Of a stretch of DNA of 64,000 nt, positions 1 through 45,489 are shown in pieces. The stretch covers positions 14,458,282-14,522,281 of the forward strand of contig OZ036007.1 of assembly GCA_964035015.1 (NCBI GenBank), given 5' to 3'. The position numbers and the translations under genes were made by a program. The notes beneath the pieces are model-generated. The model worked only from the letters and a program-made list of their open reading frames with translations, did not search any database and was not told the origin of the DNA. Positions within the stretch are counted from its first letter, which is position 1, and each line of letters opens with the position of its first letter. Source of the DNA: Corallium rubrum. Its lineage: Eukaryota; Cnidaria; Anthozoa; Scleralcyonacea; Coralliidae.

Positions 1-288
1 CATCTGGGCAATTAAATTCATCTGAGTCAGATGGATAATGTGACAATAATGCGTGTTCGAGTTACACAACGGATTATCATCATGTCGAATTAAATGTTTC
101 TCTTCTGTTTGTGACTATTTGGTGCCATGTTTTCAAGAAGTCGTTTTCAGGATCCACAGTCCAAGTAAAAACAATGAAATTTGACTGAAATTTGACATTG
201 CATTTACGTTGCATTACCGACGAAGTTAATTCAAATTGAATTCATCTGAATTAAATTTGTCTATTGTGTGACGTTTAGCACAGGCCTT
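1..288. mobile_element. Partial MITE, right end (same family as 19274-19723)
   Basis: The stretch ends in 'gacgtttagcacaggcct', almost identical to the right end of the complete copy at 19274-19723. It holds the same internal motifs ('accgacgaagttaatt', 'ctgaattaaatt'). The left half lies outside the window. The class is unknown. Confidence 0.7.
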
Positions 289-1069
289 AGTCATTACCAG
301 AAATTTCGGACAAGATGGTGGCACGCGTGCATATTAAGGACCATAATAATAGAGATTCTCAACAGTAAATAATAAGGAAGGCACATAATAATTCAAATTT
401 TGCTTAAATGGTGACATATTTCTTCTTTGCCCAACTCGATTTGACTTCAGCATGGACTAAGGAAGACTTATAACTAAAAAACATTTGCTTACTTCGACAA
501 CAAAATACTTCTCTAGCTCATCTTATTTTTGCACTGAAAGTGCCACTATCCATAGTGTTAGCCATAGTAATCTTTGCAAACAGGTTCTAGAAGTTGGCCA
601 AATTGACCAACAACGTTACAGGCAATGCAAAGTGCCCGACTCGCATTGCATTTGGCATGAGTCAGTCTACTTCAAAAGCACATAAAGTTTTAAAGTCCCT
701 TTTTGCCCCCCCCAAGGCCCCCCTAGTCCCCCCCTAGCCCCCACGAATTGATTTCCCCCCCCCCCCCAGTAAAAGTCCCTTTTTGCCCCAGGATAAAATG
801 TGTATGGATAAGCAAGTCAGTTGAATAGTTTCAGTTGTTACAAAGGTATATGTAGATAAATCTTTTATCTTCTTAGTTAAATAGTTTTCATTTTGATAAG
901 ATGTGCAGGTATGTGGTGACGAAAAATTGTTTTATAGTTCCTCACAACATTTTCCATATTATATTTGAAAGTGAACATGCTGATGAGTTCTGACACAAAG
1001 CTAAACAGTCAGACATGTGTTGTATTTTAACTAGTTTTTATGACATTTTATGACCTTCAGTGTTCTTAA
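289..1069. other. No gene seen; C-rich tracts
   Basis: Probably intronic or upstream DNA of MAEA. It contains long C runs at about 705-780. No exon, hairpin or terminal repeat was recognised. The short ORF at 485-685 has no recognisable features. Confidence 0.5.
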
Positions 1070-1262
1070 AAATCACCCCTTGGAATGCAGGAAATGGCAT
1101 TTCCGAGGCTCTAAATTTCAAAAATTTCCAGGGGGCATACCCCTGGACTGCCCTAGAAGAGTCCCTTTTTGTGAACGCCCCTCCCCCCGAAAACAAAAAT
1201 CCTTAAAAGAGGTCCTGACCCCCTCCTCATGCCCCCCCCCCCCCTCCCTAGTGTCCCAGAAC
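1070..1262. repeat. Fragment of the 'gtagccagg' hAT-like MITE family
   Basis: The segment around 'ggaaatggcatttc' and 'ccagggggcatacccc' followed by C-rich sequence matches the interior of the complete hAT-like MITE at 50816-51176, and another fragment at about 59232-59340. The diagnostic ends are missing here. Confidence 0.5.
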
Positions 1263-1497
1263 CTAGTAATGGGCTCGAACTGTATTATCATGCCAGGGCA
1301 CTAAAATAAATAAAAAAAAATATTAAGAAAATGAAATCCGACCTACCTAGACCCAAGTTTTAGTGAAAAGAAACAGGAAACCAGTTTTTTGCCCTCATTG
1401 AGATGCATTGGCACCAGTTGTCGGAACAACCTGGTTTGTTTGTTTTTTCGCATGGAGTTTGGGATATTGGACTTTGCAAGCAAGCCTTTTTTTGTTC

Positions 1498-1680
1498 ATT
1501 ACTCGGGCTACCTGGGGTAGGTCGAGTCGCACAGACAATCTGCCTGTGGTTCGGCTATTTTTTAATTTTTTAATTTTTTTTATTATTTTTTTTGGGGCGG
1601 GGGCACAAAATTGCATTATTGCATCATCCCGTCAGGTCTTGCGAAACTGTAAGGCATGTTGCGTGCTCGATTTTTTCGAG
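1498..1680. repeat. Dispersed repeat 'attactcgggct' (copy 1 of 3)
   Basis: It starts 'attactcgggctacctggg', passes a T-rich middle and ends near 'gcgaaactgtaaggcatgt'. Related copies are at about 21070-21260 and 52573-52730. The unit is roughly 160-190 bp with no visible terminal inverted repeat. The class is unknown. Confidence 0.5.
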
Positions 1681-2359
1681 TCCTTTTGCCTTTGATCAAG
1701 TTGGGTCGCTGTGTTTTCCGACGGTATTGGTGAATTCACGAGTAGTTTATCAGTAATGTTGCTGACAAGGTTTGTCCATGAAGACAGAATAGACGAATTT
1801 ATTACGGACGCGAAAAAATGCGCGCCGTGTTGACATCAGTTTTGAGTTGAGGACTAGAGACACAAGAAAGGGGCACAGTATATCAAAGAACATATACGTA
1901 CTGTTTACCCAGTAACGGCTTTCTCCTTGTTTGAATAGCTTTACCTTTTGCAAGTGACCGAGTTATAGTATTAGTTGTTCAGTAATAATGCGGCTGGCAA
2001 TTGTCTTCATCATAAACATGCTTTAATACAAAGGCTTACAACTGCACAACGCCGGCGATCGCGAAAGATCTAGTACGTAAAAGATGACGAGCTATTTCAA
2101 AACAGGTTGGCCCTGGCCTTGCTGCTTTATAGTCCAACAACTACAAAATGCAAGTATAATATTAGTATAGGTAATAGCATGGTTTCGAGTGCAATTTGGA
2201 AAACACATGCATGAGTGAGTTTTTCAAGGACTATCAAAATTGCACGAGGCTACGCTAATTAAGCTTTCAGAAATCAGTAGCCCGGCTTTGCTTGTAGGAA
2301 AGGTTTGGGAAGAGTTTTATGTTTGCTGTCATTCAAAAGTTTAAAGTGCACATAACATA

Positions 2360-3526
2360 CCATATTTCCTCTATTAAGCCTCCCAGGGGGCTTATTAATT
2401 TTGGACCATCAAGAGAGGGGGCTTATTAGAGGGAGGGGGCTTATCTAATTTTCCAAATTTCTAAAACCATCTGTAACCGATTTTCTGTTAATGGAGCTAT
2501 TTATTTAATATACATTTAATAACATCTTGGTTTAGTCAAGCAATTTTATTATCACAATACAAACTTTACAAGTATTATATCTCTATCAAAACTAGCAAAT
2601 ATAAAATTAAAATACTTAAAATTCTCAAGAACGAACTTGACAAAAAAAAGAGAAAAACTTAAACATATGAACATGTGTGTCTCAGACATTGTAACAAAAA
2701 ACAAGATGTACCATAGGTTGCAAAGAAATTTTGAATAAACCATCTATCTATCTATCTCTATCTGTAATAAATAAAAGTAAAATATTTGACAATTATTTTT
2801 CTTGTCACGTTGTGGGAAGGCTTAATAGAGGGGGGGGGCTTAATAGAGGGAGGGAAATTTTTGGGGGGGGGGAGAAATTTACTGGAGCTTAATAGAGGGG
2901 GGCTGGGGGGGGGGGGGCTTATTTTTTATTTTTAAATGAATGAGGGGGGAGGGCTTATTAGAAGGAGGCGCTTAATAGAGGGAGGGGCTTAATAGAGGGG
3001 GGCTTAATAGAGGGGGGCTTAATAGAGGGGGGCTTAATAGAGGGGGGCTTAATAGAGGGGGGCTTAATAGAGGGGGGCTTAATAGAGGGAAGGGGCTTAA
3101 TAGAGGGAAGGGCTTAATAGAGGGAGGGGTCTTAATAGAGGAACGGGGCTTAATAGAGGGAGGGGGCTTAATAGAGGGAAGGGGCTTAATACAGGGAGAG
3201 GCTTAATAGAGGGGGGGCTTAATAGAGGGAAGGGGCTTAATAGAGGGAGGGGCTTAATAGAGGGGGAGGAGGCTTAATAGAGGGAAGGGCTTAATAGAGG
3301 GAGGGGGCTTAATAGAGGGAAGGGGCTTAATAGAGGGAAGGGGCTTAATAGAGGGATGGGGCTTAATAGAGGGAGGGCTTAATAGAGGGAGGGGACTTAA
3401 TAGAGGGGGTGGGCTTAATAGAGGGGGGCTTAATTTTTATTTTTCACTGAATGATGGGGGGGGGGGGGGAGGCTTATTAGAAGGTGAGGCTTAATAGAGG
3501 GAGGAGACTTAATAGAGGAAATATGA
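2360..3526. mobile_element. pogo/mariner-like MITE with internal array of its own TIR motif
   Basis: Left end CCATATTTCCTCTATTAAGC mirrors the right end (..TTAATAGAGGAAATATG), with a TA on each outer side. The interior from about 2810 to 3515 is a long imperfect array of a roughly 19 bp unit, 'ggcttaatagaggg' plus a variable G-rich spacer, which is the reverse complement of the TIR core. No transposase is visible, so it is non-autonomous. The TA duplication and architecture suggest a Tc1/mariner/pogo relative (inference). Confidence 0.65.
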
Positions 3527-3724
3527 TAACATAACATAACACAATTTTATTTATACAGGGTGACCCCTTCAGTGAAATACACTGGTATCACCAGTCTATT
3601 TTACATATCCGGGTATTCATAATCTTGCCAGGCTTGTTCCAAAATTTCATCTTCATGAACTTTAGCTGTCAAAGTTGAAAAGAGTAATTCCAAATTATTT
3701 ACAATATTTCCTTGTTTTTTCCAG

Positions 3725-38643
<34,919 letters not shown>

Positions 38644-39848: not shown

Positions 39849-40030
39849 CGAAATATAGTAAGGTTAGATATACTGCCGAAACAGAGAACGTAGGAGTCTA
39901 ACGCTTCGAGCGAAGGCCCTTTGTCAGAGAGAAACATAGCGAAAAGGACCGTCGCTCGAAACGTTAGACTCCTAGTATATTTCGATTGTTATTTCTGCAC
40001 TGCCTACGCAGCACGATACTTTTATTTCAC
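39849..40030. mobile_element. Hammerhead mini-element, 13 bp TSD
   Basis: Flanked by TAAATTGGTTTAT (39836-39848, 40031-40043). - strand core at about 39898-39935. The + strand arm is partly deleted ('gaccgtcgctcgaaacgtta'). Confidence 0.8.
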
Positions 40031-42610: not shown

Positions 42611-42968
42611 ACGTCTGTATATATGCACTACATATACTATACCACTACTAATATCATATCGTTAAATGTAACAAATTAGTTTTACACCAGCACAGGACCA
42701 AATGTTTTAGAGAAGTTTTATTTGCCCGTGTGTACGACAGAAATTGACAAGTTTATCTTTGGAATATTTCTTCGCTCATGTGGACGACACAATTTGACAA
42801 GTTTTATTTGCTCATATGTGCGACAATTTGGCTGTTCTATTTGATTGTGTGAGGTCTACATTTGCTCATGTGTAAAACAAGAATTGAGAAGTTTTTCTTT
42901 GACAGTTATATTTTCTCACGTATAGCACACAAATTGACAAGTCTTATTTGATAACTATTTTTGGATCC

Positions 42969-43193
42969 AAATAGTGTAATAAAAGTAGCGTGCTGCGTAG
43001 GCAGTGTAGAAACAACAATCGAAATATGGTAAGGTTAGATATACTGCCGAAACAGAGAACGTAGGAGTCTAACGTTTCGAGCGAAGGCCCTTCGTCAGAG
43101 AGAAAACGTTTTCTCTCCGACGAAGGGCCTTCGCTCGAAACGTTAGACTCCCACGTTCTCTGTTTCGGCAGTATATCTAACCTTACTATATTT
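42969..43193. mobile_element. Hammerhead mini-element, 14 bp TSD
   Basis: Flanked by CTATTTTTGGATCC (42955-42968, 43194-43207). Inverted arms with cores at about 43065-43105 (-) and 43110-43155 (+). The + core is CCGACGA, one base off consensus; the - core is CTGACGA. Confidence 0.85.
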
Positions 43194-43571
43194 CTATTTT
43201 TGGATCCTATGTACGGCACGAATTTCCAATATTTTCCTTGTTACAGTTATTGTGGTAACTACACATATGTATTTACGTATATGCCCTTCTTTTGGAGACA
43301 TGGCATATTAATACTATAGTGCCAATGCTAAATAAAATCACAATAACGACGATCTATTACTAGAAGGCTACTCGTATCTTAATATAGATGGGAATAGATA
43401 TATGATCTGTCTTCACAACAATAACGGCCCTTAAGGGTGTTCAGACATATTTATTTTGATCCGTTGCTAGGGAAAACTTGATTTGACCACAGAGCTTCTA
43501 GAGTTTTACAACTTTTATTATTATTATTAAATCTTTATTTAAACTGTTAAAAAATCCATTCAGCAAAAGCT

Positions 43572-43799
43572 TCTAGGACAGCGTCGGCCACGGTTGAAAT
43601 CCAAATATTACCAGGGTTAAGTCACGTTGGCCTGAAAAACAGAGAAAAATCTTCTCGACGTTTCGAGCGAAGGCCCTTCGTCAGGAGAAATATATTCATA
43701 ATTAATAATTTCCAATTTCTCCTGACGAAGGGCCTTCGCTCGAAACGTCGAGAAGATTTTTCTCTGTTTTTCAGGCCAACGTGACTTAACCCTGGTAAC
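43572..43799. mobile_element. Hammerhead mini-element, 14 bp TSD (best preserved)
   Basis: Flanked by ATTCAGCAAAAGCT (43558-43571, 43800-43813). Near-perfect palindrome with two hammerheads. + strand: stem I TTCTC (43717-43721), CTGACGA (43722-43728), one A, GGGC/CTTC/GCTC, GAAA (43742-43745), CGTC, cleavage expected after 43749, then GAGAA pairing with TTCTC. The - strand copy is symmetrical at about 43649-43698. Variant sequence ('cagggttaagtcacg') distinguishes it from the 5014 family. Confidence 0.85.
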
Positions 43800-43887
43800 A
43801 TTCAGCAAAAGCTGGTCTTAACTGGATGAACAGTATGTACAACTAATACAATGAACAATATATGATACAAAAATACAAAAATACAAA

Positions 43888-44436
43888 CTACAAGCTACAT
43901 ATATGTCTTTCAATACCATCTGTGATTAAAAATTTAAAAAGTTCTTTTTTAGGACTGTTATAACAAGAAAGCTCCCTAATGTATTTAGGGAGGGAGTTCC
44001 GGTCTTTGGCAGCGGCAAACTGAAAGGATGTTTGACCCAAGCTACTGCAGAGTTTAGGACTTTCTAATAAAGTTCTGTCACGAAGAGGTCGCAGTCGCAC
44101 TGAACTGCGAAATTTTAACATACTTTTTAATTGATCAGGACAATCTAATTTATACAAAATTTTAAAAACTAACAAAAATCTGAAAAATCTTCTACGATTA
44201 AATAGAGATAACAAATTTAATTCAGTTCGCATAACGTGAGAGCAAGTCTGTCTGTTTTTGTGCAGAATACTTCTCATAGCGCGATTTTGGAGTTTCTTAA
44301 CTTTCTTAGTAAGTGTAGACTCACAGTCATGCCAAACAACACAACAACAATCAAGAATTTTGATCCCCATGCTAGAAATGCTAGATATTCTGCACGTAGT
44401 ATATATGAATGAAGTTCTTTCGTTTGATGACCTCAT
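43888..44436 (-). pseudogene. LINE reverse transcriptase C-terminal fragment
   Basis: Reads YTTCRISSISSMGIKILDCC, KVKKLQNRAMRSILHKNRQT and FKILYKLDCPDQLKSML, ending DGIERHICSL. This is the thumb/C-terminal part of a CR1/L2-like RT (LQNRA.R.I pattern). The catalytic domain is missing. Confidence 0.75.
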
Positions 44437-44440
44437 ACAG

Positions 44441-45489
44441 TTACATCATTGTGACGTCTTTGAGATAAGAAAAAACCTATAATATCCGCCAACTTAAAAG
44501 TTTTGCTAACTAAAGAAGTTTCACTAGAACCAGAATTGTTATGTGCAAAAAAGTACGCATGCGTTTCTCAATTGAGCAAATCTTAATGACTTTATGGTCG
44601 GTTTAATGAAATTTTAAGGAATATTTTTAACAAAAAATAGAGTATCTTTGTCATTTTGGTTTATTCATAAAATCCATGCGTACTTTTTAGGAGACATGTT
44701 TTCGCTATGTGTAAACGAAAGAAAAGTAACGATTCGATAAATACTAGTGGAAATTATATAGGAATCTTGTGAGCTCATGTTTTTGCGACTCAATGCCACT
44801 CAACCTAGCCTGAAAGAATCAAGCGCGAGCCCTCCTCCTGCCTCCTGCCTGATCGGAGCTTGCCAGCTAAATTGCGAGTTCAGCCGTGGTTCCAAGCCAA
44901 GAATGCTCGAAAAGTTGTCTTTTTCTACATCCAAAGTTAAAAGTTGATGTCCACTGTCTTCGGAATGCTTGATTTATGGTTCATCAGCTCTGCCGATTCT
45001 AAATTCCGACATTCAATCCAAATATCTCAACCTGACGACGTCCTCCGTTTATTTTTATCGCCGTCTGTGTACCGACGTTCTTCAACTCTTAAGTGTTTTT
45101 GCCAGCGACATTATACATTCTTTTGTTTTGGTACTTTTTCTCACAAACTTGCTCGGCTCTTTTCGGGGTTTTTTTTGTTATCATTTTATACCTTTCTGCA
45201 GTGTTTAAGTACAAACATCTGTTTCTGTGAAAAGATTTCTCCGACCGGAAGTAATGTCCTTAGCAACTGGTTGCCTAGCGACAAAATACATACTTTATTG
45301 TGTTCCTTAATAAGGCTTTTCAACACTAATTTACATTGAATAAAATGAAGATTAAAATGTCTTGTGATACAAGTCTATAGATAACAATAGTTACAATAAA
45401 TATTTAAAACTTTCGGTAAACTATTCTATGACTAGGAATAAAAATTGTCTAACATGTCTTTCTTTCATTTTTTCTTAAAACTTGTCAAG
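44441..45489. other. No gene recognised
   Basis: The ORF at 44944-45339 has no recognisable domain or splice context. No repeat structure seen. Confidence 0.4.

Follow-up and report, generated by a model that had tools for sequence, protein, structure and literature searches.

Anatomy of the palindrome

The window, that is, the whole 64,000-nucleotide stretch of Corallium rubrum DNA analysed here, contains at positions 43572-43799 a palindrome that is real and beyond chance. Its hairpin energy in RNA folding was found to be -168.5 kcal/mol (z -26 against shuffles). The inverted arms at 43604-43691 and 43715-43802 are 88 nt each, 99% complementary and separated by a spacer of 23 nt, and a 15-bp direct repeat lies outside them at 43557-43571 and 43799-43813. 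The features are as follows, with the arms read in the sense of the Penelope-like element (PLE) whose end they represent.

43557..43571, no strand: left target-site duplication CATTCAGCAAAAGCT, of which the last 7 bases also match the tail end of the element
43565..43691, minus strand: tail-bearing arm (T arm), from the predicted RNA 5' end (43691) to the outer tail end (43565)
43565..43606, minus strand: tail of about 42 nt, missing from the other arm
43657..43684, minus strand: minimal type I hammerhead core; predicted cleavage between 43657 and 43656
43692..43714, no strand: filler of 23 nt at the arm joint
43715..43798, plus strand: arm without tail (N arm), ending at ...ACCCTGGTAA, the inner start site
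43722..43749, plus strand: minimal type I hammerhead core; predicted cleavage between 43749 and 43750
43799..43813, no strand: right target-site duplication CATTCAGCAAAAGCT

The initial annotation had described two minimal hammerheads in inverted order, and the core CTGACGAAGGGCCTTCGCTCGAAACGTC was indeed found once per strand. The target-site duplication that it reported is present, with a length of 15 bp and not 14. Its symmetrical arms hold for the 88 nt of 99% complementarity; the palindrome as a whole is not symmetrical, because the left arm exceeds the right by 32-39 nt. The final 7 bases of the left repeat, AAAAGCT, are the usual element end in other copies, so that the left boundary is ambiguous (43565 or 43572). 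With the element read in sense and its outermost base set to 0, ends at 0 to -15 were classed as T and those at -38 to -52 as N (inner). The arms of the window's copy measure about 90 and 130 nt, and both cover the same element stretch, about -43 to -130.

Other features were noted in the window. A 185-aa open frame at 43888-44445 (minus strand) adjoins the palindrome, and we take it to resemble the end of a non-LTR retrotransposon reverse transcriptase. One strand of a short-unit satellite at 28500-29000 translates into repeated RVVSC, and the tandem repeat at 9339-10205 into a repeated 14-residue unit.

The hammerhead motif

Minimal type I hammerheads of PLEs were reportedly described by Cervera and de la Pena in 2014 and by Luense et al. 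in 2017. The motif found here is like them in its core (CUGANGA...GAAA...GUC), its 4-bp stem II and its two-pair loopless stem III, and nothing essential was seen to differ. Three families with dissimilar flanks all retain the core. Family A is set apart from families B/C by changes on both sides of three stem-I pairs (12 sequences, representing few independent events), and pairing at the two outermost stem-I positions is kept in only 41% of cells. The number of cells changed on both sides was higher than in all 500 shuffles; the number of pairs changed on both sides was not exceptional and was reached by 68 of the 500 shuffles.

With Rfam 15, the model search that the initial annotation had proposed found no hammerhead, whether at the gathering cut-off over the whole window, at E<=10 over 43500-43880 or with a single arm from a relative as input. 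The scores listed were below the cut-off and resemble chance or hairpin effects (miRNA and others). As a hammerhead test Rfam was discarded as useless, since even a single arm gives no match, and the assignment therefore rests on the core sequence, the three stem-I pairs and the PLE context.

When a single arm with its tail was folded, the RNA did no better than shuffles (z +0.83), and the helix II hairpin and pairs around the core appeared. A transcript of the palindrome is predicted to form one long hairpin with both hammerhead cores inside the duplex. Because both cores would lie within this folded duplex, self-cleavage from the 43572-43799 locus is unlikely on the folding model. The proposal that the locus gives RNA able to cleave whichever strand is transcribed is thus not borne out: there is one hammerhead per strand, and the modelled hairpin would bury both. 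According to an excerpt of PMC7761336, cleavage by minimal PLE hammerheads probably takes place in dimers.

In the predicted RNA, the hammerhead would occupy the first ~35 nt, and its cleavage site lies at -96. Copies spanning this site numbered 2,703 compared to 2,879 just downstream, approximately 6% fewer, with the two counts only roughly comparable as they come from different probes. Hammerhead-cleaved RNA as the main template was rejected on this rough figure, which suggests that cleavage leaves little trace in the copies. This agrees with the Anolis PLE, in which hammerhead cleavage was dispensable for insertion in vitro (PMC11167929).

Just downstream of the hammerhead in family A arms (for example, at about 3208-3232 of locus L053), TTTTTCTCTGTTTTTCAG/G resembles a splice acceptor; spliceosomal introns are reported in PLE repeats in an excerpt of PMC11722881.

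Copies in the genome and identity of the element

The 474-Mb assembly was searched with the 228-bp query and with probes of 28 letters allowing up to 2 mismatches, for each of which the backward control gave 0. The query returned 81 match rows, a figure that is not a copy count because palindromes match both strands and only 40 of 53 candidates were scored. The hammerhead-core probe found 9,199 matches genome-wide in all families. The family A arm, upstream TATA-region and tail probes found 2,879, 1,613 and 1,328 places, respectively, the last being 46% of the arm matches, and as counts these are only roughly comparable between probes of different sequence. The 100 places listed per probe search were all exact and all on one contig (C1).

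Among the matches listed, the arm probe gave 24 of 31 neighbours less than 5 kb apart in minus-then-plus order and the hammerhead probe 15 of 20; the latter 15 pairs were retrieved. The spacing of neighbouring arms among these matches ranged from 37 to 4,283. Same-strand neighbours, as direct tandem pLTR-ORF-pLTR copies would be, made up 5 of the 31. The sampled inverted pairs form a continuum from tens of bases to more than 4 kb; the sample covers part of one contig and favours young copies, because it was taken by exact core or arm matches.

Long pairs were found to carry reverse-transcriptase sequence and a GIY-YIG-like C-terminus. A 655-aa ORF at L053 matched RVT_1 with E=1.3e-7 (31.9 bits against a cut-off of 29.6), and four other ORF pieces matched no family at E<=0.001. 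In the C-terminus the motif CISCSKCPMLYIGETGRRLGDRFVEH was seen, and PF01541 (GIY-YIG) scored E=0.018-0.033 (14.9-15.8 bits), below the Pfam cut-off of 22.6 in three of three ORFs. AlphaFold runs without alignment on the question of a GIY-YIG endonuclease gave pLDDT values of 36.9 and 34.8, too poor to use. A phmmer search against PDB gave no match at E<=1, and NCBIfam gave only group II intron reverse-transcriptase similarity far below its cut-off. The same coding piece is present on both strands at L052, L054, L056, L059 and L065, where it is doubled because the arms are long. At L065 the coding part stops about 380 nt before the element end; after it come a TATA-like box, which reads TATAAATA in most of the copies shown, then the hammerhead and finally the two end points. 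This layout is that of a Penelope-like element and the arms are its end, which upholds the link to PLEs drawn in the initial annotation.

The elements are comparable to the Anolis PAc element (PMC11167929) and, as far as an excerpt of PMC3846280 describes them, to the Adineta vaga Pen families. With both they share a single reverse-transcriptase ORF whose end is putatively GIY-YIG-like, copies truncated at the 5' end as well as copies inverted head-to-head, A+T-rich targets, short target duplications and an optional tail of 30-40 nt on one inverted repeat; with PAc they also share a repeat with a minimal hammerhead. The same anatomy, with a 31-bp tail on one inverted repeat, is given for the rotifer A. 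vaga in that excerpt. In contrast to its 8-10 bp duplications there, those found here are mostly 13-15 bp, with a tail of about 42 nt. Unlike in Penelope/Poseidon-type PLEs, the arms here go down to about 90 and 130 nt and the presence of one tail per pair is nearly a strict rule in the family A sample.

Metazoan retrozymes, to judge from an excerpt of PMC7761336, are likewise short and non-coding with a type I hammerhead, but they are tandem repeats of about 150-300 bp, whereas the palindrome is an inverted pair and a truncated piece of a coding element. Identity as a metazoan retrozyme was rejected on the inverted arms and on the minus-then-plus order noted above.

Outer ends, joints and insertion of the inverted pairs

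Among 37 inverted pairs, 24 had a non-simple target duplication (11-15 bp, plus one of 19 that was nearly all AT), 11 lay in AT repeats where its length was unreadable and 2 had no duplication. In a flank test of 25 true pairs, the match was 11-15 bp in 23 and 0 and 5 in the remaining two. When left and right flanks from separate loci were combined 600 times as a control, no match exceeded 11, a length reached twice.

The outer ends of the pairs were found to be fixed at two sites. In 35 of the 37 pairs, one end carries the tail of approximately 42 nt and the other stops about 42 nt short (T/N); the exceptions are L024, which is inner/inner (N/N), and L019, which is inner/-66. Thirteen pairs entered solely through the query, itself T/N, and among the 24 from C1 places, not chosen through the query, 23 were T/N (P 3e-8 to 1.5e-6 under independent ends with 30-50% tails). 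In a test using coordinates only, 17 of 24 pairs had one exact tail, none had two and 7 had none, and 17 was reached in 225 of 20,000 shuffles; among the matches listed, an exact tail was present on 12 of 52 unpaired arms. Left out were the duplicates L043 (= L051), L041 (= L016) and L049 (= L024), L047, which shares a 1,177-bp block with L039, two copies at L042 in which the tail piece measured only about 16 nt, and any copy with a far end beyond the retrieved stretch; arm lengths of L056 and L062 are nominal, owing to extra internal pieces. The one-tail rule is thus almost strict in the family A sample, and we do not claim it as unpublished. Of 20 clusters with wide flanks, 9 held a pair, 8 a single arm and 3 were mixed, gapped or without a family A arm. 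Single arms exist, and two-sided priming is therefore not obligatory.

A pair could also come from successive events, one insertion being followed by another into it or next to it. Their own sequence is a possible target for PLEs (PMC11167929), and a nested copy, family A inside family B, is present at L014. Yet a single duplication encloses the whole pair in 24 of 26 readable pairs, and the one-tail rule would not be expected, which makes this origin extremely unlikely.

The initial annotation had held the inverted pair to be itself the unit that moves. A palindrome copied whole, as a fold-back or MITE-like element or an inverted retrozyme, would account for the symmetrical arms, the target duplication and the many similar copies, but the 37 pairs were found to have 37 different centres. 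One centre did occur at two places, L039 and L047; the two loci share a 1,177-bp block (3300-4476, 99%) in which the same family A pair is flanked on either side by about 335-350 bp, and the centre was therefore copied within something larger. Moreover, arm lengths vary independently from 23 to 2,949 nt, single arms with their own target duplication occur (for example, at L030 and L046), and long versions hold reverse-transcriptase sequence. A palindrome that moves as such is accordingly very unlikely. The other copies instead point to what the initial annotation had considered as the contrary case, a by-product of truncation of a longer element: the feature at 43572-43799 is most likely a short double-ended copy of the family A PLE, made at its landing site, and not a new mobile unit.

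The joints bear on how the second arm was made. In 19 long pairs the T arm was the longer in 10 and the N arm in 9. The arms stop more than 10 nt apart in 17 of them and more than 500 nt apart in 8, and only 2 (L054 and L059) have joints within 10 nt of symmetry. In a set of 17 longer pairs, the joints showed 11 overlaps of 1-16 nt and 6 fillers of 2-9 nt. For the Penelope palindromes of Adineta vaga, fold-back self-priming, in which a cDNA or antisense transcript snaps back and primes the second arm, is favoured by Arkhipova et al. in an excerpt of PMC3846280, where palindromes at some joints are described along with the head-to-head order. The almost symmetric joints of L054 and L059 are in line with such an event. 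However, fold-back priming would have the arms meet at one point, and it leaves the stop of the second arm at the inner start site unexplained in nearly every pair. Unequal arms and the fixed inner end thus speak against self-priming for most of the sampled pairs, and we consider it unlikely here; the data favour independent priming on two strands.

Twin priming of the LINE type also yields inverted 5' parts and target duplications and, in LINE-1, involves priming on both target strands, with the second strand annealing to an internal part of the same RNA and priming there. Twin-primed LINE arms come from neighbouring, non-overlapping RNA stretches. The arms found here, in contrast, copy the same stretch and overlap fully, and both begin at fixed element sites, so that twin priming is a highly improbable source of these pairs.

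Many short arms end at AATTTCTCC, at ACTAATTTCTCC or a few bases upstream. In the C1 sample of 73 arms, 16 end between -120 and -160, whereas each of the five 40-nt bins that follow holds 2-3 ends; 55 extend past -160, and 1 and 1 stop earlier. Because this sample was picked by the core, arms stopping before the hammerhead core were missed. The first A of AATTTCTCC lies about 35 nt downstream of the start of the box TATAAATA, and CTAATTT agrees with the initiator consensus. The pile-up zone is predicted to be the RNA 5' end, by the TATA box and the initiator-like site. The predicted end falls at -131 to -141, at AATTTCTCC or ACTAATTTCTCC, some 32-35 nt past the first base of TATAAATA.

The reading that we prefer, at a probability of roughly 85%, is that a short family A PLE copy was inserted head-to-head, with both cut strands priming a cDNA, one from each start site, and the two cDNAs then being joined. 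The element's endonuclease would make cuts in the two strands of an A+T-rich target, offset by about 13-15 nt, and the duplication implies that these cuts would leave 3' overhangs. Both target 3' ends would then prime reverse transcription inside the element RNA: one cDNA would start with the tail, at the outer site, and its partner about 42 nt upstream, at the inner site. In the window's copy both cDNAs would run to the RNA 5' end, just before the hammerhead, and would be joined with the 23-nt filler; its arms would be about 90 and 130 nt because reverse transcription covered the whole distance between the start sites and the predicted RNA 5' end. In this course of events, the cuts and the order in which they were made, the enzyme involved and the transcription start are our inferences. 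Frangieh et al. (PMC11167929) showed for the Anolis PLE that its protein cuts the two strands of the target and extends both, prefers A+T-rich DNA and starts reverse transcription at two internal sites bounding the tail. The outer ends of the sampled pairs match these two start sites.

With ~2,900 arm matches, and many of the sampled ones clean, two-ended and flanked by duplications, the choice of priming site can be read directly. We put at even odds a further proposal, that the PLE complex is asymmetric and uses the outer start on one strand and the inner start on the other. The tail would then be the footprint of a two-strand, two-start reaction, and the short palindromes would use the starts nearest the capped, hammerhead-occupied 5' end. 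In vitro, no such strand difference in start site was seen for the Anolis PLE (PMC11167929). The one-tail rule is a sharp prediction for such in vitro systems and useful for the study of PLE mechanism; the element itself is ordinary in kind.

The base before the 5' end of short arms was C in eight of eight arms of the AATTTCTCC type, where the element has T (L001, L002, L006, L007, L016, L019, L021 and L027). The same base was C in seven of nine of the ACTAATTTCTCC type (L009, L014, L031, L035, L046, L076 and L080, not L003 or L078). In some copies this C may be the last base of the other arm.

PLE remnants are frequent in the window. A second palindromic PLE insertion, of family B, lies at 42955-43207 and has a 14-bp duplication (CTATTTTTGGATCC), 95-nt arms without spacer and, by eye, one tail and one inner end. 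A third, also of family B, lies at 5001-5246 with the duplication TGTTGGCATTTTT and, by eye, an inner and a tail end. Further fragments with the hammerhead core, some apparently palindromic, are found at 6039-6063, 35205-35236, 36024-36047, 37217-37251 and 39901-39934. Among the sampled loci, a family B palindrome at L046 (7560-7860) is tail/tail by eye, against the one-tail pattern, and at L014 (1491-1900) the family A pair lies in the tail region of the family B pair, which gives their relative ages.
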